Assembly (NCBI GenBank): GCA_005893305.1
Contig: VBOZ01000017.1
Location: 139,635-203,634 of the forward strand
DNA length: 64,000 nucleotides
Reading direction: 5' to 3'
Source: Candidatus Eisenbacteria bacterium
GTDB lineage: Bacteria > Eisenbacteria > RBG-16-71-46 > SZUA-252
Made by a program: the position numbers and the translations under genes. Position 1 is the first letter of the stretch; each line of letters starts with the position of its first letter. Shown piece after piece: positions 3,581-46,328 of the stretch. The notes below the pieces were generated by a model. It had not been told where the DNA came from. It ran no database searches and saw only the letters and a list, made by a program, of their open reading frames with translations.

Positions 3581-4451
3581 CGACTCCCCAGATGGGGCGG
3601 AAGATGCACCACTGGGTCACGTGGGCCGCGATGTTTCGCTCCTGGGCCCGCGCGACGCCCGCCGTGAGGCGGCGCAAGTCCTCGTGGAGCGGCAGGTCGA
3701 AGTCCGGCTCATCCAGGCCGTCGAACGTGAATTCGTGATCTCCGCTTGGCCCGCGCACGGCGTGGCCGTGGAGAATCGGCACCCGGGCGCGCCGCGCGAG
3801 GATCGCGGGGCCGGCGGGGAAGGGGACGCGGCGGCCGAAGAAGTCCGCGGGCAGCGAGCGGGAATAGACGTCGCCGTCCACGAGGAGCGCCAGGACCTCG
3901 CCGCCCCGGAGCGCTTTGACGAGCGGCGCGAAGCCGTCCTCGAGCGTGGTGACCCGGATCCCCGCGCGTTCCTTGAGCGCGCGCACCTGGCGGGCCAGGA
4001 GGGGGTGGATCTGCACTCCCGTCACCGTGTGCATCCGGAGCCCGAGCCGCGTCAATCCGACGCCGACGATCTCCCAGTTGCCCAGGTGCGGCATCGCGAG
4101 GATGGCGCCCCGTCCCCGCGCGATCGCGCGGTACAGGAGCTCGGTGCCCGAGACCCGGAAGGTGGAGCCGGCCGGCAACGCGAGGGCCGTGGAGCGGCCC
4201 AGATATTCCATCCAGCCCCGATGGTGGGACTCGAACATGCTCCGCGCCGCGCGCCCGCGCGCCTTCGGGTCGGCGAGGCCAGGGTGTCCGCAGGCGGCGA
4301 TCCGCGCCAGGTTCTCCAGGACGGCGGAGCGGCGGCCGGGGCTCAGGCGATACTGGAGCGCGGCGAGCGCCCGCGCGAACGCGCGCTGGGCGAATGGAGG
4401 CAATGCCGCCGAGGTCGATTGGATGGCGTTGAGAATTAATCGCGGGAGCAC
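3570..4451 (-). CDS. LpxL/HtrB-type lysophospholipid acyltransferase
   Basis: Lipid A/PIM-type acyltransferase of about 293 residues. The catalytic HxxxxE box is seen as HLGNWE, followed by the second block around LVDGDVYSRSLPADFFGRRVPFPAG that forms the acyl-donor site. Proteins of this family move an acyl chain from acyl-ACP or acyl-CoA onto a glycolipid at the cytoplasmic face of the inner membrane. I chose the GTG at 4451, which gives a typical N-terminus (MLPRLILNAIQ). A TTG at 4490 would add 13 residues and lie almost at the predicted transcription start. First gene of the minus-strand operon; partners with the PimA-like transferase. Confidence 0.85.
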   Translation of the reverse strand: MLPRLILNAIQSTSAALPPFAQRAFARALAALQYRLSPGRRSAVLENLARIAACGHPGLADPKARGRAARSMFESHHRGWMEYLGRSTALALPAGSTFRVSGTELLYRAIARGRGAILAMPHLGNWEIVGVGLTRLGLRMHTVTGVQIHPLLARQVRALKERAGIRVTTLEDGFAPLVKALRGGEVLALLVDGDVYSRSLPADFFGRRVPFPAGPAILARRARVPILHGHAVRGPSGDHEFTFDGLDEPDFDLPLHEDLRRLTAGVARAQERNIAAHVTQWCIFRPIWGVDAA

Positions 4452-4497
4452 GGCCGAGTCGGGTGGGTCCGCTACGCCTGAAGCCGTCAAGCGGCTG

Positions 4498-4527
4498 ACG
4501 CTACAGCAAGCCCGATCGGGGTGTCAA
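4498..4527 (-). promoter_or_regulatory. sigma70-type promoter for the acyltransferase operon
   Basis: On the minus strand TTGACA (4527-4522) is followed after 18 bases by TAGCGT (4503-4498). The predicted start of transcription is near 4491, just before the acyltransferase. Form and spacing match seven other promoter candidates in this window. Confidence 0.6.
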
Positions 4528-4564
4528 GAATGCCACCGGAACGGGGTAAGTCGGGCCGAATCCG

Positions 4565-4593
4565 TTGACTTGCCGCGCGGCGCTGCCTAGAGT
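4565..4593 (+). promoter_or_regulatory. sigma70-type promoter, rightward
   Basis: TTGACT (4565-4570), 17-base spacer, TAGAGT (4588-4593). It points toward the hypothetical gene at 4975, which would give a leader of about 375 bases running antisense to the small Cys-rich ORF at 4637-4834. It lies back-to-back with the leftward promoter at 4498-4527. Confidence 0.45.
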
Positions 4594-4636
4594 GGCGGCT
4601 GGGTTTCACCCAACGGTGGATCGATTCAGCCGCAGG

Positions 4637-4834
4637 CTACGGCAGCTTCTCTTCGTCCGTGGACTTCGGCTCGAAGAGCCCATCCGCGGTCTCCAGAGCG
4701 TGGAGACAGGGGCAGCTCACTCCCTCGGCCGCGTGCGGGCAGAACGGATACACTCGATTGTCGCGCCGGCAATATACTTCGGGCGCGCGCCGCGCGAGAA
4801 ACCAAGGGGCGGGTGACACGGTTGTCCGCTTCAA
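4637..4834 (-). CDS. Small cysteine-rich hypothetical protein
   Basis: 65 residues starting at TTG 4834, preceded by CGGGAGA, a plausible ribosome site 8 bases upstream. Four cysteines sit at about residues 21, 32, 40 and 42 (YCRRDNRVYPFCPH and SCPCLH), which could bind a metal. The C-terminus is acidic and polar. A sigma54-like element about 90 bases upstream on the same strand supports expression. No family recognised. It could instead be a chance frame within a long intergenic region, as several frames are open here. Confidence 0.35.
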   Translation of the reverse strand: MKRTTVSPAPWFLARRAPEVYCRRDNRVYPFCPHAAEGVSCPCLHALETADGLFEPKSTDEEKLP

Positions 4835-4921
4835 GGGTGATTCTCCCGGGCCCCAGGCCCTTTGAGTGAAGCAGCACCTCCCGGCCAGTTCGGATCGGTC
4901 GGGCTTCAGCTAGGAAGCATG

Positions 4922-36507: not shown

Positions 36508-36564
36508 GGGGGAGGAAGGTCCAGATTGGGCCTTCCTTCATTCCTTCTTGCGGAGACGGTTCAC

Positions 36565-38235
36565 GTGACTGACGCACAGGGACGGGGCATCTTCCTAGCT
36601 TTACTCATCGGGATTGCGCTTGTTTTCCTCGCGGTAACACCCACGCCCGCTGCCGCGCTCTACTATTCCTTACAAACCCCCATCGCGCTCGAATGCCATC
36701 TGCGATCGGAGTTGGCCGAAGCCGCCGGTGATCGCGACGGCGCGATCGCGTGGGCCGAGTCGCTCGCCTCCATAGACCCCGTATCGAGCTTCGCCATGTC
36801 CCGCATCGCCATCCTGTACGAGTCGGGCGGCGAGGACGTGACGGCTCTCGAATGGGGGGAGCGCGCTCTCGCGTTGGACAGCTTGAACGCCGACGCCGCG
36901 ATGCTGGTCGGACGCATGCGGCTCCGCTCCGGGGAGCCGGCCGTCGCGGCGCAGGTGCTGACGCCGCCGCTCCGACAGCTGGGGGCGGTCCCCGAGCTCT
37001 ATGCGCTGCGCGCGCTGGCGCACCAGCTTGACAAGAATTACGAGGCGGCGCTCGCCGATCTGAAACGAACCGACGTGCTCCTGCCCGATTTCGCGTGGAT
37101 TGCGACCGGGATCCTCAGCCTCGCGCTCGAGGACGGCCGACTGGAGGAAGCGTATTCGGCCCTCCAGCTGGCCCTGGAGCTGAAGCCTGACGATTCGCGG
37201 ACCCTCGCGCTGGGCGTCTCCCTCGCCAAGCGAATGGGAAATCCGATCCTCGAGGAGACGCTACTTCGGGAGTGCGCGCTGGCGCACGGCGCGCGCCAGG
37301 AGGAGGTTGCCGCGTACGGCGCGTTCCTGATCCGCCACGGGAAGGAGCACGAGTACCGGATGCTTCTCGACTGGGCGGGGGCGCAAGGCTTCCGCGTCGA
37401 CGAATTGAGGGTCGGAGCGGGCCGGGCGTTGCTGGCCACGGGGAACTATCGGGAAGCCCTCGCCAGCGTGAAGCCCCTCCGGCACGACCTGAGCGCGTTC
37501 CCCGTGCGCGCGCGCGCCTACCTCGGGCTGGGCGATGAGCGGAGCGCGCTGAGTGACTACAGGGCCCTGATGTCGAGACGCGGCCTCTCCCGCGAGGAAT
37601 CGCTGGTCGTCGCCTACCTCGAGATCCGCGTCGGGAACCGGGAGCAGGGGATCAGGACCGTCGAGCAGGTCCGCTCGGCGCCGCTCGACAATGCCCGCCA
37701 GGTACTGGCGGCAAGCCTGTGCTACTCTTTGCTCGGTCATCCCGAGGAGGCGGTGTCGCTGATCCGCGACGGCGCGGGCCGGGGGTTGGCGAGCCCGTCC
37801 ACGTACGAGCAGCTTGGCTCGGCGGCCACGGCGCTTGGAGATAGCCTGCTCGCCCAATGGGCCTGGGAGCGCCTGCGGGACCTCGGGCGGGAGACATCGG
37901 AATGCCTGTACTTCTTCGCTTCAGCCGAGCTGGGACAGGGGCACGCCGACCAGGCCGCTCAGTCCCTCCAAAAGTCGATCGACCTCAACCCGAGGAACGG
38001 CAGAGCCTTGCTGATGCTGGGCAACATCCGGAAGGGTCGGGGTCAGCTCGAGATGGCGCGAGATACCCTCATCCGCGCCGCCCAGTGTCCCGAAACGTCC
38101 GTCGAGGCGAATCGGGCCCTGGCGCGCGTCTGCCACAGCCTCAGGCTGGACTCGGAAGCCCGGGAAGCCGAATCGCGGGCCCGCTCCGGCCGGACCGGCC
38201 CGGCCTCAGGTCTCAGCTTCTTCCAGGGCCGGTAA
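36565..38235 (+). CDS. Secreted or membrane-anchored TPR protein
   Basis: About 556 residues. From GTG 36565 the N-terminus is a signal or anchor sequence (GIFLALLIGIALVFLAVTP then an AAA region), followed by some ten to twelve TPR-like helical pairs (ALEWGERALALDSLNADAAML, RNGRALLMLGNIRKGRGQLEMA). The site is therefore periplasmic or extracytoplasmic. A TTG at 36526, preceded by GGAGG, would add 13 residues before the signal sequence; I prefer GTG, preceded by GGAG. Its own promoter and the ECF sigma gene 43 bases downstream suggest cotranscription with that signalling unit. Function unknown. Confidence 0.8.
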   Translation: MTDAQGRGIFLALLIGIALVFLAVTPTPAAALYYSLQTPIALECHLRSELAEAAGDRDGAIAWAESLASIDPVSSFAMSRIAILYESGGEDVTALEWGERALALDSLNADAAMLVGRMRLRSGEPAVAAQVLTPPLRQLGAVPELYALRALAHQLDKNYEAALADLKRTDVLLPDFAWIATGILSLALEDGRLEEAYSALQLALELKPDDSRTLALGVSLAKRMGNPILEETLLRECALAHGARQEEVAAYGAFLIRHGKEHEYRMLLDWAGAQGFRVDELRVGAGRALLATGNYREALASVKPLRHDLSAFPVRARAYLGLGDERSALSDYRALMSRRGLSREESLVVAYLEIRVGNREQGIRTVEQVRSAPLDNARQVLAASLCYSLLGHPEEAVSLIRDGAGRGLASPSTYEQLGSAATALGDSLLAQWAWERLRDLGRETSECLYFFASAELGQGHADQAAQSLQKSIDLNPRNGRALLMLGNIRKGRGQLEMARDTLIRAAQCPETSVEANRALARVCHSLRLDSEAREAESRARSGRTGPASGLSFFQGR

Positions 38236-38278: not shown

Positions 38279-38920
38279 ATGAACACGGAGAGCGATGTGC
38301 CACCCGAACTACTTCGCCTGAAAAAGCTCGATCTTGCCGAGCTGAGCGACGAAGACGTCATGGAGCGTTGCGCGATGGGCTCCGAGGCGGCGTTTCGCGC
38401 GCTCGTTCAGCGCTATCGCACACGCATCATGAATCTCGTATGCAGGTTCATCAACGACCGAGACAGGGCGGAGGAGATCAGCCAGGAAGTCTTCCTGCGC
38501 GTCTTCCGGAATCGCGAGCGGTATCGGAAGAGCGGGAAGTTCTCCACGTGGATCTTCACGATCGCGGTGAACTTGACCAAGAACGAGATTCGAAGCCGCG
38601 TCCGTCACCGCGGCACGTTCAGCCTGGACGCGATGGAAGAGGAGTCCGGCGGACAGGGTGTGAGCTTTCCGGATTCGAAGCCTCTTCCCGATGAAGATCT
38701 CAATGCCAACGAAATTGGACGCAAGGTCGCAGAAGCGCTTCACAAGATCCCCGCGCGCTACCGGGAAGCTGTGGTGCTGCGCGACGTCGAGGGGCTCAGC
38801 TACGAGGAGGTCGGCCAGATCCTTCGCATCCCCGGCGGTACGGTGCGCTCACGCATCAACCGCGCGCGGCTGATGCTGAAGGAACGGCTCAAACCCTACC
38901 TCAGCCTGGAGGATGTATGA
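38279..38920 (+). CDS. ECF-family RNA polymerase sigma factor
   Basis: 213 residues. Region 2 (AFRALVQRYRTRIMNLVCRF, then EEISQEVFLRVFRN and KFSTWIFTIAVN) and region 4 (YREAVVLRDVEGLSYEEVG, GTVRSRINRARL) are complete, with the linker of a group 4 (extracytoplasmic function) sigma. The anti-sigma gene follows with an ATGA overlap. Upstream, GGAACCT (38250-38256) and TGTAT (38272-38276) are spaced like an ECF autopromoter, though the start would fall on the ATG. The envelope partners downstream suggest an envelope-stress role. Confidence 0.95.
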   Translation: MNTESDVPPELLRLKKLDLAELSDEDVMERCAMGSEAAFRALVQRYRTRIMNLVCRFINDRDRAEEISQEVFLRVFRNRERYRKSGKFSTWIFTIAVNLTKNEIRSRVRHRGTFSLDAMEEESGGQGVSFPDSKPLPDEDLNANEIGRKVAEALHKIPARYREAVVLRDVEGLSYEEVGQILRIPGGTVRSRINRARLMLKERLKPYLSLEDV

Positions 38921-39672
38921 ACTGCCGGTCCGCCGAACCACTCCTATCCGCCTTCCTCGAGGACGACCTGAGTCAGAAGGAGCGTCGATCGTTGGAGGCC
39001 CACATCCTCGCCTGCCGGCGCTGTTCTCTGTCCGTGCGCGAGCTTCGCGCGACGCTCGAGCTGATGCAGAACGTTCCGTACGTGGAGACGAGCCCTCACT
39101 TCGAAGAGGATCTCCTCGCCCGGATCCGCTCCGGCGAGGCCATGAGGCCGACCGTCGTGGAGTGGCTCAAGGGGCTCATGGAGCCGGCGCGTCTTCGCCC
39201 TCTCTTCCTCGCGGGCGCGGGCGCATGCGCCGTCTGGATCGGTGTGGTGCTCGTGAACCCGAACGGCGTCAACCGGCACACGAACGTAGCGGGCGTGACG
39301 GCGCCCTCGCACCTGGCGCCCGGTTCATCCGTTGCGGCCACTCCGTCGCAGGAGCCCTCGAAGGTCGAGGTAGCGTCGCTCGCAGCTCCTTTCGCCGGGA
39401 CGCAAACGGCCCCGCGTCAGCCCAACGGACGGACGGGGTCTCGCCCGTCGCCCGCTCGCGGGTCGACCCAGTCCGGGGACGCCCTGGATGAGAGCGTCTG
39501 GCCGACGCCCGCTTCGAGCCAGGATGCCGCGATTCCGAATCCGGGCTCGCGCTACGACGACCAGTACATCACCGACCAATTCTTCCTCGAGAGGGATCTC
39601 GGGGGGTCCAACAACCCGACGATAACACCCGTCTCGGATCGCTCCTCCGATGACGTGTACATCACCTTCTAG
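38917..39672 (+). CDS. Anti-sigma factor with zinc-finger N-terminus
   Basis: 251 residues. The ZAS-type domain (CRSAEPLLSAFLEDDL, HILACRRC: HxxxCxxC) binds the sigma factor. One membrane helix lies at about residues 88-106 (PLFLAGAGACAVWIGVVLV). The C-terminal domain is Pro/Ser/Thr-rich and ends in an acidic block (DDQYITDQFFLERD). ATG 38917 overlaps the sigma stop. It probably holds the sigma at the membrane until the periplasmic part is cleaved or released by a signal. Confidence 0.9.
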   Translation: MNCRSAEPLLSAFLEDDLSQKERRSLEAHILACRRCSLSVRELRATLELMQNVPYVETSPHFEEDLLARIRSGEAMRPTVVEWLKGLMEPARLRPLFLAGAGACAVWIGVVLVNPNGVNRHTNVAGVTAPSHLAPGSSVAATPSQEPSKVEVASLAAPFAGTQTAPRQPNGRTGSRPSPARGSTQSGDALDESVWPTPASSQDAAIPNPGSRYDDQYITDQFFLERDLGGSNNPTITPVSDRSSDDVYITF

Positions 39673-39718: not shown

Positions 39719-40900
39719 ATGACGGCCTTCCTCGCGGGCGCGTTCGCGCTCCTGTTCGCGGCCACCCTCTTCGCACCCGGAGTCCGCGCCGCGCCCAGGC
39801 CGCTCCGCTCCGATGACGGCTCGCTCCTGGGCGTCGTCGACTCGGTTCACACGAGCATCCTCACGGTCGTCGGCTACCCGCCCTCGGAGGCGTCGCCGCG
39901 TCCTGGGGCGAAGCGTCGGCGGCTCATCGGGACCGCCATTGCGCTCTCGGACCGGAGCATTCTCACGTCCGCGAGCATCGCGATCCCCGGCGGCAGCGTT
40001 CGCGTGCTGCTGAAAGGGGGCATCGAGCGGCCGGCGGTGCTCTTGGGCATCGACCGCGCCTCGAACATCGCGCTCTTCCAGGTCGAAGGCGCCACCCTCC
40101 GCCCCCTCGCGCCCGCGCCGCCCCAGTCGCTCGCCATCGGGGCATGGGTCGCGGTGATCTCGAACGTCGCGGTCACGCGCCCACAGGCGGCCCTGGGCCA
40201 GATCGTCGGGCGCGGCGAGCGCATGGATTACGCGCGCTCGGGAGAGATTCTCGAGATCGACGCGCCCAGTTACCCGGGCTCGACCGGCGGCGCCGTGCTC
40301 AACGAGGAGGGCGACTGGGTCGCCGTCGTCGTCGGGCGCGCGGTGCCGAGCCCCTCGGACGAGGCCTCGCGCGTCGGGCTGAATCGCGGGGACGATCCGG
40401 TCCCCGATCCGAGCAGCGTGCTGATCGCGCTGCCCGTGGATCAGGTCGCTTGGATGACGAAGGAGCTCGAGACCTACGGCAGCGTGCGACGCGGCTACCT
40501 CGGGGTGCAGCTCCGGCGCGCGACCGGTGCGGCGTCCGACTCGCTCGGCGTGCTGATCGCGGGCGTGGTTCCGGGCAGCCCCGCCGACTCGGCCGGAATC
40601 CGGGCGGGGGACCGCGTTCTGGCCATCGAGGGCGAAGAGGCCCACACGGCCGACGCGCTCACGACGAAGGTTCGCGCGATTCGCCCCGGAGACCAGATCG
40701 AGCTGACCGTGCTCCGAGGGACCGAGATATTTCCGCTCCACGTCATCGTGGGAGCGGCATTCGTCCAACCCCCCGTCGGCCCCCGTCCCACCGTCTCGCC
40801 GGACGTCGGCCGGATGAAGCAGGAGATTCAACGCCTCGAGCAGGAGAAGCAGCGGCTCGAGGAGCAGATCCGCGGGCTCGAGGGCGCTCCCCAGCGCTAG
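39719..40900 (+). CDS. DegP/HtrA-like PDZ protein with all catalytic residues lost (pseudoprotease)
   Basis: 393 residues from ATG 39719, with a signal peptide (AFLAGAFALLFAATLFAPGVRA). The trypsin-like fold aligns with DegP, but the catalytic triad is gone: ILTSASIAI has Ser86 where VVTNNHVV has His, DRASNIALFQV has Asn116 where DPRSDIALIQI has Asp, and PGSTGGAV has Thr189 where RGNSGGAL has Ser. A PDZ domain (about 255-345: RGYLGVQLRRATG, GSPADSAGIRAGD) and a C-terminal coiled coil (QEIQRLEQEKQRLEEQI) are intact. It directly follows the anti-sigma gene. A binding or sensing role in the periplasm is more likely than proteolysis. Known DegS/DegP relatives act in sigmaE stress responses. Confidence 0.88.
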   Translation: MTAFLAGAFALLFAATLFAPGVRAAPRPLRSDDGSLLGVVDSVHTSILTVVGYPPSEASPRPGAKRRRLIGTAIALSDRSILTSASIAIPGGSVRVLLKGGIERPAVLLGIDRASNIALFQVEGATLRPLAPAPPQSLAIGAWVAVISNVAVTRPQAALGQIVGRGERMDYARSGEILEIDAPSYPGSTGGAVLNEEGDWVAVVVGRAVPSPSDEASRVGLNRGDDPVPDPSSVLIALPVDQVAWMTKELETYGSVRRGYLGVQLRRATGAASDSLGVLIAGVVPGSPADSAGIRAGDRVLAIEGEEAHTADALTTKVRAIRPGDQIELTVLRGTEIFPLHVIVGAAFVQPPVGPRPTVSPDVGRMKQEIQRLEQEKQRLEEQIRGLEGAPQR

Positions 40901-40937
40901 CCCCGCCGCGCGGCCTGTGGTAGCCTGCGCGCCACCG

Positions 40938-42029
40938 ATGATCCGCGTGCGCGTGCAGGGCGTTCCCCACGTCACCCAGATCCGCGTCCGTCGCGGCCTC
41001 CTGCGGCGAGCCGGCGCCCTTCTACGCGAGCTCCATGCCGGCGGAACCGCCGCGCTCGTCACCGACCGCACGGTCGGCCGGCTCTATGCCGCGCGCGTCG
41101 CGGCGAGCTTGGAGCGGGCCGGCTTTCGCGTCGTTCGCACGGTCCTTCCCGACGGGGAGCGCTCCAAGTCGATCGACTCGTTCCGCGCGCTCTGCGGGCG
41201 GTGGTCCGAGGATGGCGTCGGCCGCGACGCGATCGTCGTCGCGCTCGGCGGGGGCGTCGTCTCGGACGTGGCGGGCTTCGCCGCGTCGACATTCGCGCGC
41301 GGGCTCGCGTGGGCGGCCCTGCCGACCACGATCCTCGCCCAGGCGGACGCGTCGATCGGCGGAAAGGTCGGGGTCAACCTCCCCCGGGGGAAGAATCTGG
41401 TGGGCGCGTTCCACCATCCCACGGTCGTCTTGGCCGACACGGAGACGCTCCGGACGCTCACCCCGCGGGCCTATCGCGCCGGGCTCGCCGAGGTGTTGAA
41501 GATCGGCGTGATCCGCCGGCCCGAGATCGTGTCGCGCCTCTACCGCCTCACGGCGCGCGGAGGGTGGGGCGAACCCCGCGTGCTCGAGCCGCTGATCCGG
41601 ATGGCTGCCGCCGAGAAGGCCCGATTGGTCTCGAAGGACGAGCGAGACCGCGGCGTCCGGCTAGCGCTCAACTTCGGCCACACGGTGGGGCACGCTCTCG
41701 AAGCGGCCTACGGATACCGACGCTATTTCCATGGAGAGGCCGTCGCCCTGGGAATCGTCGCCGCGCTCCGTCTGAGCGTGCTCGAGGTCGGGCTGGACCC
41801 CATCGTAGCGATCGAGATCGAATCGATCTTGCGGCAGCTGGGGCTGCCGACCCGGCTCGACCGGCGCCCCGGAATCCGCTTCTGGAATGCGCTCGATCGG
41901 GACAAGAAGCGTGGACGGGCGGGCGTTCGGATGATATTGTGCCCGGCGATCGGCAAATCTAAAGTCTTTGAACTGTCGTCGCTTACCGCCCTTCGGCGCG
42001 TCGTTCTGGGTCTGGTCCGTCCCGCCTAG
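40938..42029 (+). CDS. aroB: 3-dehydroquinate synthase
   Basis: 363 residues. NAD loop ALGGGVVSDVAGFAAS; metal ligands in the Glu of GLAEVLKIG, the His of NFGHTVGHALE and the His of FHGEAVALG. It makes 3-dehydroquinate from DAHP in the shikimate pathway. ATG 40938 chosen; GTG 40917 would add seven residues. aroQ, the next enzyme in the pathway, lies one gene downstream. Confidence 0.95.
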   Translation: MIRVRVQGVPHVTQIRVRRGLLRRAGALLRELHAGGTAALVTDRTVGRLYAARVAASLERAGFRVVRTVLPDGERSKSIDSFRALCGRWSEDGVGRDAIVVALGGGVVSDVAGFAASTFARGLAWAALPTTILAQADASIGGKVGVNLPRGKNLVGAFHHPTVVLADTETLRTLTPRAYRAGLAEVLKIGVIRRPEIVSRLYRLTARGGWGEPRVLEPLIRMAAAEKARLVSKDERDRGVRLALNFGHTVGHALEAAYGYRRYFHGEAVALGIVAALRLSVLEVGLDPIVAIEIESILRQLGLPTRLDRRPGIRFWNALDRDKKRGRAGVRMILCPAIGKSKVFELSSLTALRRVVLGLVRPA

Positions 42030-42038
42030 GAGGGTCCT

Positions 42039-42914
42039 ATGAGGAACGACACGCGCCAGGAGGCGATCCTGCCGCTGGAAGAAATTGTCGCGAGGGATCC
42101 TGCCACGGCGCTCTACCTACAGCTTGCCGAGCGACTGATGGAGCGGGGACGCCTGGATGAGGCGATCCAGCTCTGCGAGGACCGGCGCACCCGCCCGGGG
42201 AACGGCGTCGGGGACCGCATCGTTCTCGGCCGCGCTTACCTCGCGGACGGCCGGTTGAACGAGGCCCGATCCGAGTTCGAGGCGGCGCTCAAGCTGGATC
42301 GCGAGAACGTGGTCGCGCTCAAGGCGCTCGCGGGGATCCTCTCCCACTCGGGCGACCACGATCAGGCCACGGGCTACTACCGCGCTGTCTGCCGCATCGA
42401 TCCCGGCGATCTCGAGTCCCAGACCGCGGTGCACCAGATCACCTCGGGCGAGTTTCCCGAGGCGCGGCCCGCCGACGTCATCGTCGGGCAGGGCGATCTC
42501 TCCTGGCAGCCGGTCCGGCTTCCCCGCGAGGAGGAGCACCTGCCCGAGCTGGCGCTCGGCCTTCGCACGATCGAGACGTTCGATCCGGGCCCGGCGCCGT
42601 CGCCGTATACGGCGGTGACTCAGGATTTCCAGGTTATTCCGATCGAGCGGCTGGGGCGGATGGAGCGGGAGGCCGCCGCGCCGCCCGCGCCACCGGAAGC
42701 GGCAGCGTCCGCCCCGCCCGCGGCCGACGCCCCGCCCGGCGATGCCGTCGCGGCCCCGGAAGCCGAGCCCGCGCAGGCCGGGCCTCCGAGCCAGGCCATG
42801 GAGCCTTCCGTGCCGTCTCCCAACCCGGCGCCGAAGCCGTCGGGCCCGATGATCGAAGGGAACAAATCGGCGTTCCAGGAGTGGCTCGACCGCCTGGGCG
42901 GCAAGAGAAGCTGA
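42039..42914 (+). CDS. TPR protein with Pro/Ala-rich tail
   Basis: 291 residues, no signal peptide. Three TPR pairs at about residues 24-130 ([57 protein letters not shown]) are followed by a linker rich in Ala and Pro and a short C-terminal helix ([13 protein letters not shown]). AGGAGGGTCCT precedes ATG 42039. It is placed between aroB and aroQ (stop overlaps as TGATG) without an evident role in that pathway. Probably cytoplasmic scaffold. Confidence 0.82.
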
Positions 42915-43374
42915 TGGCCCGCGACGTCTGGGTGCTTCACGGACCGAACCTGGGTCTCCTCGGCCGCCGGGAGCCCCGTCTCTACGGCAAGGAGACGCTC
43001 GAATCGATCGACAGGCGTCTCGTGAAGCTGGGCGAGGCCCTCGGCCTCCGGGTCGCATCGTTCCAGACGAATCACGAGGGCGCGCTCATCGATCGGCTCA
43101 CGATGGCCATGGACGAAGTCGACGGCTGCCTTCTCAATCCCGCCGCCTTCAGCCATACGAGCCTCGCGCTGGCGGATACGCTGCGATCGATGACGATCCC
43201 GGTCGTGGAAGTCCACATGACCAACCTCTACGCGCGCGAGCGGGAACGCCAGGAGAGCGTGACGGGGAGCGCCGCGACGGGCGTGATCATGGGATTCGGC
43301 CCCGCGAGCTACGAGCTCGGTCTCCACGCGCTCGCCGCGATGGTCGGGGGCGCGCGCGGCCAGGGCAAGCGTCG

Positions 43375-43378
<4 letters not shown>
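42914..43378 (+). CDS. aroQ: 3-dehydroquinate dehydratase, type II
   Basis: 154 residues. [19 protein letters not shown] carries the catalytic Tyr and Arg, [22 protein letters not shown] and [11 protein letters not shown] supply the remaining active-site Asn, His, Glu and Arg. It dehydrates 3-dehydroquinate. Start ATG 42914 overlaps the TPR stop; its own stop overlaps accB. Confidence 0.95.
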
Positions 43379-43821
<443 letters not shown>

Positions 43822-43842
43822 CCAGCGTCGCGGGGGAATCGA

Positions 43843-44964
43843 ATGAACGTAAAACGCGTCCTGCAGAAAATGGTGGAGCTTAAAGCCTCGGACCTGCACC
43901 TGAAGGTCGGCACCAAGCCGACCGCCCGCGTGAACGGGGAGCTCGTCGCGATCGAGGAGCCGGCGCCCACGCAGCAGGACCTCGAGGCGATCGTGGACCA
44001 GATCCTGACGCCGAAGCAGAAGAAGGTGTTCGAGGATACGAAGGAGGTCGATTTCGCGTTCGGCGTGACCGGGCTGGCCCGGTTCCGTACGAACTTCTTC
44101 CAGCAGCGCGGCACCTTCGCGATGGTCTTCCGCCAGGTTCCGGCCACGATCCCTGCGTTCGAGGAGCTGAACCTTCCTCCGGTGATCGAGGAGCTGGCCA
44201 GCCGCCAGCGCGGGCTCATCCTCGTCTGCGGCACCGTCGGGAGCGGGAAGTCGACCACCCTCGCCGCCATGATCGACTCGCTGAACCGGCGCGAAGCGAA
44301 GAACGTCATCACGATCGAGGATCCGGTCGAGTTCCTCTTCCGCGACAAGAAGAGCACGATCTCGCAGCGGGAGGTCGGCCTCGACACCGCCAGCTTCTCC
44401 GAAGGGCTGAAGCACGTCCTCCGCCAGGACCCCGACGTGATCCTGATCGGGGAAATCCGCGATCCCGACACGATGCGCACCGCGCTCATGGCGGCCGATA
44501 CGGGGCATCTCGTCCTCTCCACGCTCCACACCGTGGACGCGCCCCAGACCATCAACCGGATCATCTCCTTCTTCCCGCCGCACGAGCATGACGAGATCCG
44601 GTTCATGCTCGCCGCGACGCTCCAGGCGGTCGTGGCCCTGCGGCTGATTCCGCGCTCGGATCAGCCGGGGCGGGTTCCGGCGGTGGAGGTGATGATGGTC
44701 ACCGCCACGATCCGGGAGTACCTCCAGGACCGCGACAAGATCTCCCTCATCCAGGGCGTGATCTCCGAGGGCGTTTCCCAGTACGGGATGCAGACCTTCG
44801 ACCAGTCGATCATGAAGGCCTACACGGATGAGAAGATCAGTCTCGAGAACGCTCTCCGCTTCTGCTCCAACCCGACCGAGTTCGAGCTTCGGGTGAAGGG
44901 AATTCACTCCACGTCCGACGAGTCCTGGAAGAGCTTCGAGCGGCAGAAACAGGAAACGACGTAG
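43843..44964 (+). CDS. pilT: PilT-type twitching motility ATPase
   Basis: 373 residues. PAS-like N-domain (residues 1-100), Walker [11 protein letters not shown], Asp box ITIEDPVEF, Walker [10 protein letters not shown] and His box STLHTVDA, the set of the secretion/retraction ATPases. It depolymerises type IV pili; length and motifs fit PilT/PilU. No other pil gene is in the window. It sits between accB and accC on the same strand, 21 bases after accB and 5 before accC. Confidence 0.94.
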
Positions 44965-44969
44965 CGGGC

Positions 44970-46328
44970 ATGTTCCGGAAGATTCTGGTCGCGAATCGCG
45001 GCGAGATCGCGCTCCGGATCATCCGGGCCGCCCGCGAGCTCGGGATCGAGACGGTCGCCGTGTTCTCGGAGGCCGATCGCGACTCCCTCCACGTGCGCCT
45101 CGCCGACGAGGCGGTCTGCATCGGGCCGCCCCCGTCGTCGGCGAGCTACCTCCACATCCCGCGGATCATCAGCGCGGCCGAGGTGACGGCCGCCGAGGCG
45201 ATCCACCCAGGCTACGGGTTCCTCTCCGAGAACGCCCACTTCGCCGAGGTGTGCGAGTCGTGCCACATCCGATTCATCGGTCCCACCTCCGAGATGATCC
45301 GCGCGATGGGGGACAAAGCGGTCGCCAGGAAAACCGTGGCCTTAGCCGGCGTCCCCGTCACCCCCGGGAGCGAAGGGATCCTCTCCTCGGCGGATGACGC
45401 CGTCGCCGTCGCCCAGAAGCTCGGCTTCCCCGTGATCATCAAGGCCTCCGCGGGCGGCGGCGGGAAGGGGATGCGCATCGCCACCGATGAGGCATCGCTC
45501 CGAAACGGGGTTCTCACCGCGCAGGCCGAAGCGGAGGCGAATTTCGGCTCGGGCGAGGTCTACCTCGAGCGGTACATCGAGCGCCCTCGCCACATCGAGT
45601 TCCAGATCTTCGGCGACCGGCAGGGGAACGTGGTTCACCTGGGCGAGCGCGAGTGCTCGATCCAGCGGCGCCACCAGAAGCTGATCGAGGAGTCGCCGAG
45701 CGTGGCGCTCACCCCGGAGCTCCGGAAGCGGATGGGGGCCGCCGCGATCAAAGGGGCGCGCGCGATCCGGTACGAAGGCGCCGGCACGATCGAGTTCCTC
45801 CTGGGACCGACGGGCGAGTTCTATTTCATGGAGATGAACACGCGGATCCAGGTGGAGCATCCGGTCACCGAGGAAGTGACGCGCCTGGATCTGATCAAAG
45901 CCCAGATCGCCGTTGCCGCCGGAGAGCCGCTCCCCTGGAAGCAGGAGGAGATAAAGATCGACGGCCACGCGATCGAGTGCCGCATCAACGCGGAGCGCCC
46001 CGAGCAGAACTTCCAGCCGTCGCCGGGCACCGTCCGATATTTCCACGGCCCCGGCGGACCCGGCGTTCGGGTCGACAGCCACCTCTACTCGGGGTACGTC
46101 GTTCCCTCGTACTACGACTCGATGGTCGCGAAGATCATCTGTTGGGGTCGCGATCGCGACGAGGCGCTCGCCCGGATGCGCCGCGCGCTCCAGGAGACGG
46201 TCGTCGAAGGGATCGACACGACCCTCTCGTTCCACCTCCAGATCCTGGCCGACGAGAAGTTCCGCCGGGGCGAAATCCACACAGGCTACCTGGACGAGTT
46301 CTTCGCGGCCCGGAAGCAGGCCGCGTGA
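44970..46328 (+). CDS. accC: Biotin carboxylase subunit of acetyl-CoA carboxylase
   Basis: 452 residues. ATP-grasp fold with [23 protein letters not shown] and [14 protein letters not shown], all typical. It carboxylates biotin on AccB. It begins five bases after pilT, showing one transcription unit. The carboxyltransferase (accA/accD) is not in the window. Confidence 0.96.

Follow-up and report, generated by a model that had tools for sequence, protein, structure and literature searches.

An HtrA-like protein without its catalytic triad behind an ECF sigma/anti-sigma pair in Candidatus Eisenbacteria and other phyla

DegS and AlgW link envelope stress to sigma factors by switching a protease on. 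The locus studied here raises the question of what an HtrA-like protein could do directly behind a sigma/anti-sigma pair when the residues needed for cutting are gone. It was found in a stretch of 64,000 nucleotides from a Candidatus Eisenbacteria genome (assembly of 2.75 Mb), referred to below as the window.

The locus and the missing triad

The HtrA-like gene of the window (pseudo-HtrA, Table 1) translates to 393 amino acids with a hydrophobic N-terminus; an alternative start codon is possible at 39650, which would give 416 amino acids and an overlap with the end of the anti-sigma gene. The N-terminal segment ends in GVRAAP and is compatible with a signal peptide or a membrane anchor, and export of the protein to the periplasm is inferred from it. 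The criterion for an HtrA/DegP (S1C) fold was met, as both Trypsin_2 and PDZ scored above the curated cut-offs. The C-terminal coiled coil was the longest confident stretch of an otherwise poor AF2 model (pLDDT 36, two-sequence alignment). A profile of the pseudo family matched DegP (1.6e-58), DegS (9.8e-55) and AlgW (4.5e-55). The window protein itself did not reach the cut-offs of the DegS model TIGR02038 (73.6 of 422.95 bits) or the Do-family model TIGR02037 (108.1 of 416.2 bits), and it gave no match to the MamO model at E<=0.01, a conserved His for the di-His metal site also being absent. MucB/RseB domains were not found in it with Pfam and NCBIfam, which returned only Trypsin_2, PDZ, HtrA-type and other PDZ-protease models. 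The gene follows the sigma and anti-sigma genes, and the three are called the trio below.

Table 1. Features of the locus, with the PDZ-only relative of family f11 in the last line
Feature	Position	Strand	Basis or remark
Terminator-like hairpin with T-rich tail, between RNase III and TPR genes	36511-36539		
TPR protein, hydrophobic segment at the N-terminus; gene immediately upstream of sigma	36526..38235	+	start uncertain
RpoE-like ECF sigma factor	38279..38920	+	Sigma70_r2/r4_2, TIGR02939 matches
Anti-sigma factor with long periplasmic tail	38917..39672	+	
Anti-sigma, cytoplasmic zf-HC2	38923-39024	+	
Anti-sigma, single TM segment	about 39196-39258	+	
Anti-sigma, second tail motif YITDQF, local form of YVLDxV-like motif	39565..39582	+	
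Anti-sigma, extreme C-terminus VYITF-COOH (DDVYITF), proposed PDZ ligand	39655..39669	+	no binding data
Pseudo-HtrA: signal sequence, dead Trypsin_2, PDZ, coiled coil	39719..40900	+	translation, Pfam
Trypsin-like domain of pseudo-HtrA	39929..40327	+	Pfam Trypsin_2, E 1.1e-17
Ser86 for catalytic His (...ILTSASIA...)	39974..39976	+	
Asn116 for catalytic Asp (...DRASNIAL...)	40064..40066	+	
Thr189 for catalytic Ser (...YPGSTGGA...)	40283..40285	+	
PDZ domain with GYLGV carboxylate-binding loop	40493..40729	+	Pfam PDZ, E 1.1e-14
C-terminal coiled coil, residues 361-388	40799..40882	+	sequence; conserved in most relatives
PDZ-only HtrA-like gene of f11, L149 (G026:C161)	about 4333-4896	minus	

The His-Asp-Ser triad expected of an S1C peptidase was not present in the window protein. 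An earlier note on this DNA had read Ser86, Asn116 and Thr189 as replacements of the three catalytic residues, and had named as its refutation homologues with an intact triad aligned at shifted positions. The replacements were confirmed by translation, profile and paralogue alignment. At the His and Asp motifs the family profile aligned to solved DegP-like proteases with zero gaps. Four HtrA paralogues from the same genome, all intact, carry H, D and S in the columns of Ser86, Asn116 and Thr189; a triad merely shifted by the alignment was therefore ruled out, and homologues of the refuting kind were looked for and not found. For want of the triad the window protein cannot perform HtrA-type catalysis, a judgement that rests on the alignments and not on activity data.

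The position directly behind an ECF sigma/anti-sigma pair, also claimed in that note, was upheld. The anti-sigma gene product fits the class I zf-HC2 membrane anti-sigma factors, having a zf-HC2 domain and a single TM segment, and its gene comes directly after the ECF sigma gene. Because of the terminator-like hairpin between the RNase III and TPR genes, the predicted arrangement suggests that the TPR, sigma, anti-sigma and pseudo-HtrA genes form their own transcription unit. Many genomes of the phylum encode such a TPR protein ahead of the sigma gene, and it may belong to the module as a fourth component. Downstream in the window (40917-46328) lie genes for AroB, a TPR protein, AroQ, AccB, PilT and AccC; AccB-PilT-AccC were also seen behind the trio in G181, which belongs to another phylum (L169).

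Distribution of the trio and decay of the protease domain

All 11 families of the phylum (47 genomes) show the gene order ECF sigma, zf-HC2 anti-sigma, HtrA-like protein, usually followed by AroB, AroQ, AccB, PilT and AccC. In a first alignment the His column held mostly Ser, with Thr, Gly or Arg in the remainder, and the Asp column held Asn in nearly all. The catalytic Ser was kept in most families and partly lost in the family of the window (Thr, Ser or Ala). No trace of the triad was left in families f7 and f10, and the HtrA-like protein of f11 consists of a signal peptide and a PDZ domain only. The proteins form an evolutionary series that begins with protease-like members, passes through degenerate ones and ends in the PDZ-only form. 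The expectation that ECF-linked homologues would share the same triple substitution was met in part: loss of His, usually together with the change of Asp to Asn, is old and general, whereas loss of Ser is local, most relatives from other families reading GNSGG, and the full triple is a trait of the window's own lineage.

Outside the phylum, 385 genomes were searched, with targeted searches in addition, and the trio was found in at least four further phylum-level groups and in family f148. As the profile used to find them was built from pseudo members, these cases give no measure of how frequent the trio is elsewhere. In the phylum of G181 and G318 the trio was present in 8 of 8 genomes, in that of G123 and G265 the pseudo-HtrA was present in 5 of 8, and G104 and G148, each the sole genome examined of its phylum, both had the trio. 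The HtrAs behind the anti-sigma genes had His replaced by D, T, N, S or G; those encoded elsewhere in the same genomes had H/D/S intact. G119 is a partial exception: its intact HtrA gene lies near a sigma/zf pair, but about 1 kb downstream of it instead of immediately next to it. Judged from these comparisons, the window protein is no isolated lesion; it is a member of an old family of HtrA pseudoproteases whose partners in a module are an ECF sigma factor and a membrane-spanning zf-HC2 anti-sigma factor.

The catalytic His was found in none of the 40 sigma-linked proteins aligned, and H/D/S were intact in all 22 HtrAs taken from elsewhere, mostly from the same genomes. Such uniform absence of the His among the aligned sigma-linked homologues shows that the loss of the triad is not due to chance. 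Residual cutting by another mechanism, for example by the leftover Ser nucleophile with a different base, could be considered for the many relatives that keep GNSGG. It appears very improbable, however, because the Ser position is Thr in the window and Ala, Ile, Val, Gly or Cys in others of the pseudo set, because the family alignment contains neither a conserved His nor any residue able to replace the catalytic base, and because f11 has lost the whole protease domain.

In a tree built with the triad regions masked, a 100/99 branch separated 22 of 22 active HtrAs from the pseudo set. The root was not established, and the simple reading of this split between the active and pseudo sets is a single origin of the pseudo family. 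The mean top-residue frequency of the protease domain was 0.67 in the active set and 0.45 in the pseudo set, and the number of columns conserved at >=0.9 fell from 47 to 9. For the PDZ domain the corresponding frequencies were 0.54 and 0.46, with 8 and 10 such columns, and Gly262 of the carboxylate loop (GYLGV) was invariant in 40 of 40. The two sets are of unequal breadth, so only the contrast between the domains is meaningful and not the absolute values. By this measure of column conservation, the protease domain has decayed and the PDZ domain has not. The decay also bears on the idea that the dead protease domain took on a different ligand, for example a metal, which the locus would sense. 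MamO, an HtrA-type pseudoprotease whose Ser position is occupied by Thr, is a precedent for such reuse (PMC4794232), but in the present family the protease domain is the decaying part, and no conserved His or other metal-ligand pair was found in the alignment. We therefore give this explanation hardly any credence.

The periplasmic tail of the anti-sigma factor

The anti-sigma factors end in a tail of about 70-140 residues, which is taken as periplasmic since it follows the single TM segment. Although this tail and linker diverge, a terminal Phe was found in 39 of the 40 anti-sigma loci of the phylum, mostly as -[IV]xF-COOH, with I or V at position -2 in 35 and T, S, I or V at position -1 in 38. 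The lone exception was f11, where the HtrA-like protein is a PDZ remnant. At the same loci a terminal F occurred in none of the sigma, AroB, AroQ, AccB, PilT, AccC or pseudo-HtrA genes, and it was likewise absent from the six other zf-HC2 proteins of the window genome; among zf proteins encoded next to other sigma genes in relatives, 2 of about 11 had it. Outside the phylum the terminal residue was F in 9 of 15 anti-sigma factors and Y in 5 of 15, and the anti-sigma factor of G104 ends in ...TFSP. Overlap with the next gene was considered as the cause of the C-terminal conservation and rejected, since the codons vary synonymously (ACC/ACG/ACA/ACT/TCG), the stops vary as well, and many relatives have HtrA-like genes that start downstream.

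PDZ domains of the DegS/AlgW type choose their ligands by positions 0 and -2, where an aromatic and a large residue, respectively, are bound (PMC8545111). The anti-sigma tails, with F at 0 and mostly I or V at -2, match this rule. Another explanation dispenses with any contact between the two proteins. Protease-dead DegP retains chaperone function, and with its PDZ domain and coiled coil kept the pseudo-HtrA could be a periplasmic chaperone or holdase of that kind, merely co-expressed with the sigma factor, as co-expression alone could hold the genes together. This would leave unexplained both the aromatic C-terminus of the anti-sigma factor and the fact that only the sigma-linked copies are dead, and we find it decidedly unlikely.

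A second, YVLDxV-like motif lies 26-40 residues before the tail end inside the phylum and 16-19 residues before it outside. A regular expression for it, composed after inspection, matched 24 of 30 tails against a mean of 1.0 in shuffled ones. The motif was not found in f7, f10 and f11, which are the families with the protease domain most decayed or gone; as at most two or three events are involved, this tracking in the aligned families is only a hint. Families f88 and f199, in the phylum of G123, have nearly identical tails (YVLDxVPMRVxYERTIY; L197, L199, L201, L180), and the tail is much more constrained there than in the phylum of the window. Identity with the tails of outer membrane proteins (OMPs) was tried as a discriminating test and was not decisive, as a terminal F is found in most Omp85 proteins of every group, including those with Y-ending anti-sigma factors. 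Strict OMP-tail mimicry is thus not general, the anti-sigma factor of the G123 phylum (phylum C) ending in Y and its Omp85 proteins mostly in F.

Proposed mechanism and comparison with known systems

A mechanism is proposed in which the pseudo-HtrA, through its PDZ domain, would bind the anti-sigma factor in the periplasm at the latter's aromatic C-terminus (-VYITF in the window), while the second tail motif, a YVLDxV sequence that reads YITDQF in the window, possibly docks in the groove of the dead protease and is held there uncut. Bound in this way, the tail would be shielded from cleavage of the DegS/RseP type. Misfolded OMPs, whose tails also end in F, would compete for the PDZ domain and release the anti-sigma factor, which could then be cut by an active DegS-like HtrA and RseP to free the sigma factor. 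The window genome encodes a membrane-anchored, intact DegS-like HtrA as well as RseP (311 bits, cut-off 147.55), so that the normal cleavage cascade is available downstream.

A periplasmic partnership between the dead HtrA and the anti-sigma factor, in which the PDZ domain holds and shields the tail until OMP tails displace it, is in our judgement probable, though well short of assured; binding, shielding and release by OMPs are all inferred, without binding data. The earlier note had supposed that binding was kept and proteolysis lost, and that the anti-sigma factor might be regulated. This reading is supported by the loss of the triad across phyla in only the sigma-linked copies, by the PDZ domain kept against a decaying protease domain and by the aromatic anti-sigma C-terminus; it holds as far as such evidence extends, binding and regulation not having been demonstrated. 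The fuller version, in which a non-proteolytic HtrA is a dedicated receptor of the anti-sigma factor, with imitation of an OMP tail in the PDZ domain, the second motif in the dead site and displacement by stress peptides, is offered tentatively and as something short of an even bet.

The main rival gives regulation the opposite sign. The C-terminal aromatic residue could be a degron for an active DegS/DegQ-like HtrA, with the pseudo-HtrA handing the anti-sigma factor over to it, as adaptor or co-subunit, and so acting as an activator. HtrAs act as trimers, which makes mixed oligomers conceivable; intact HtrAs, one of them membrane-anchored, are encoded in the genome, and the tail motif is substrate-like. 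Mixed trimers are made less likely, however, by the divergence of the pseudo-HtrAs, which are about 25-33% identical to the active paralogues and form a separate branch. The same facts fit either sign, and whether the tail is protected or presented is beyond the reach of sequence; we favour shielding and regard presentation as unlikely. The C-terminal aromatic residue could also serve another PDZ protein, such as the active DegS-like HtrA or RseP.

In the open literature, which leaves subscription journals mostly uncovered, no description of a sigma-linked pseudo-HtrA or of an anti-sigma factor tailed with a PDZ ligand was found. Several phyla, mostly known from metagenomes, keep the parts of DegS/AlgW with a dead protease; if the shielding mechanism holds, this would show that the reading of peptides by a PDZ domain alone can carry the signal. 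The anti-sigma tails DDVYITF, AVITF and YERTIY would be defined candidate ligands with a decoy-type logic and a search signature for such systems.

Among known systems, the DegS-RseA-RseB-RseP pathway of sigma-E in E. coli shares with the present locus an ECF sigma factor, a membrane-spanning anti-sigma factor, a periplasmic HtrA-PDZ protein and RseP, as well as C-terminal -xF peptides as PDZ ligands. It differs in that the sigma-linked HtrA here lacks the triad, the -xF tail is on the anti-sigma factor and the trio has no RseB-type domain. RseB shields RseA; RseB/MucB have an unrelated fold, and only the proposed role, that of a periplasmic shield of the anti-sigma factor against site-1 cleavage, is alike. 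In the AlgU-MucA-MucB...MucD operon of Pseudomonas aeruginosa an HtrA gene also lies inside the sigma/anti-sigma operon, and MucD is an active protease. The sigE-rseA-htrA locus of mycobacteria has the same order of sigma, anti-sigma and HtrA genes as the trio, and its HtrA, unlike the pseudo-HtrA, is regarded as an active protease. In the AlgW-MucE system of P. aeruginosa the PDZ domain reads a C-terminal -xxF, which is WVF in MucE (PMC8545111); AlgW is an active protease and MucE a separate protein, whereas here the tail is on the anti-sigma factor. MamO and the degenerate MamE copies of magnetotactic bacteria are HtrA pseudoproteases (PMC4794232), MamO binding metal in magnetosome formation without a sigma/anti-sigma partner, and the pseudo-HtrA having no conserved His. 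Set beside these systems, the locus suggests a stress sensor that grips and releases in place of one that cuts; if true, such a displacement switch would be an inversion of DegS signalling common to at least five phylum-level groups.
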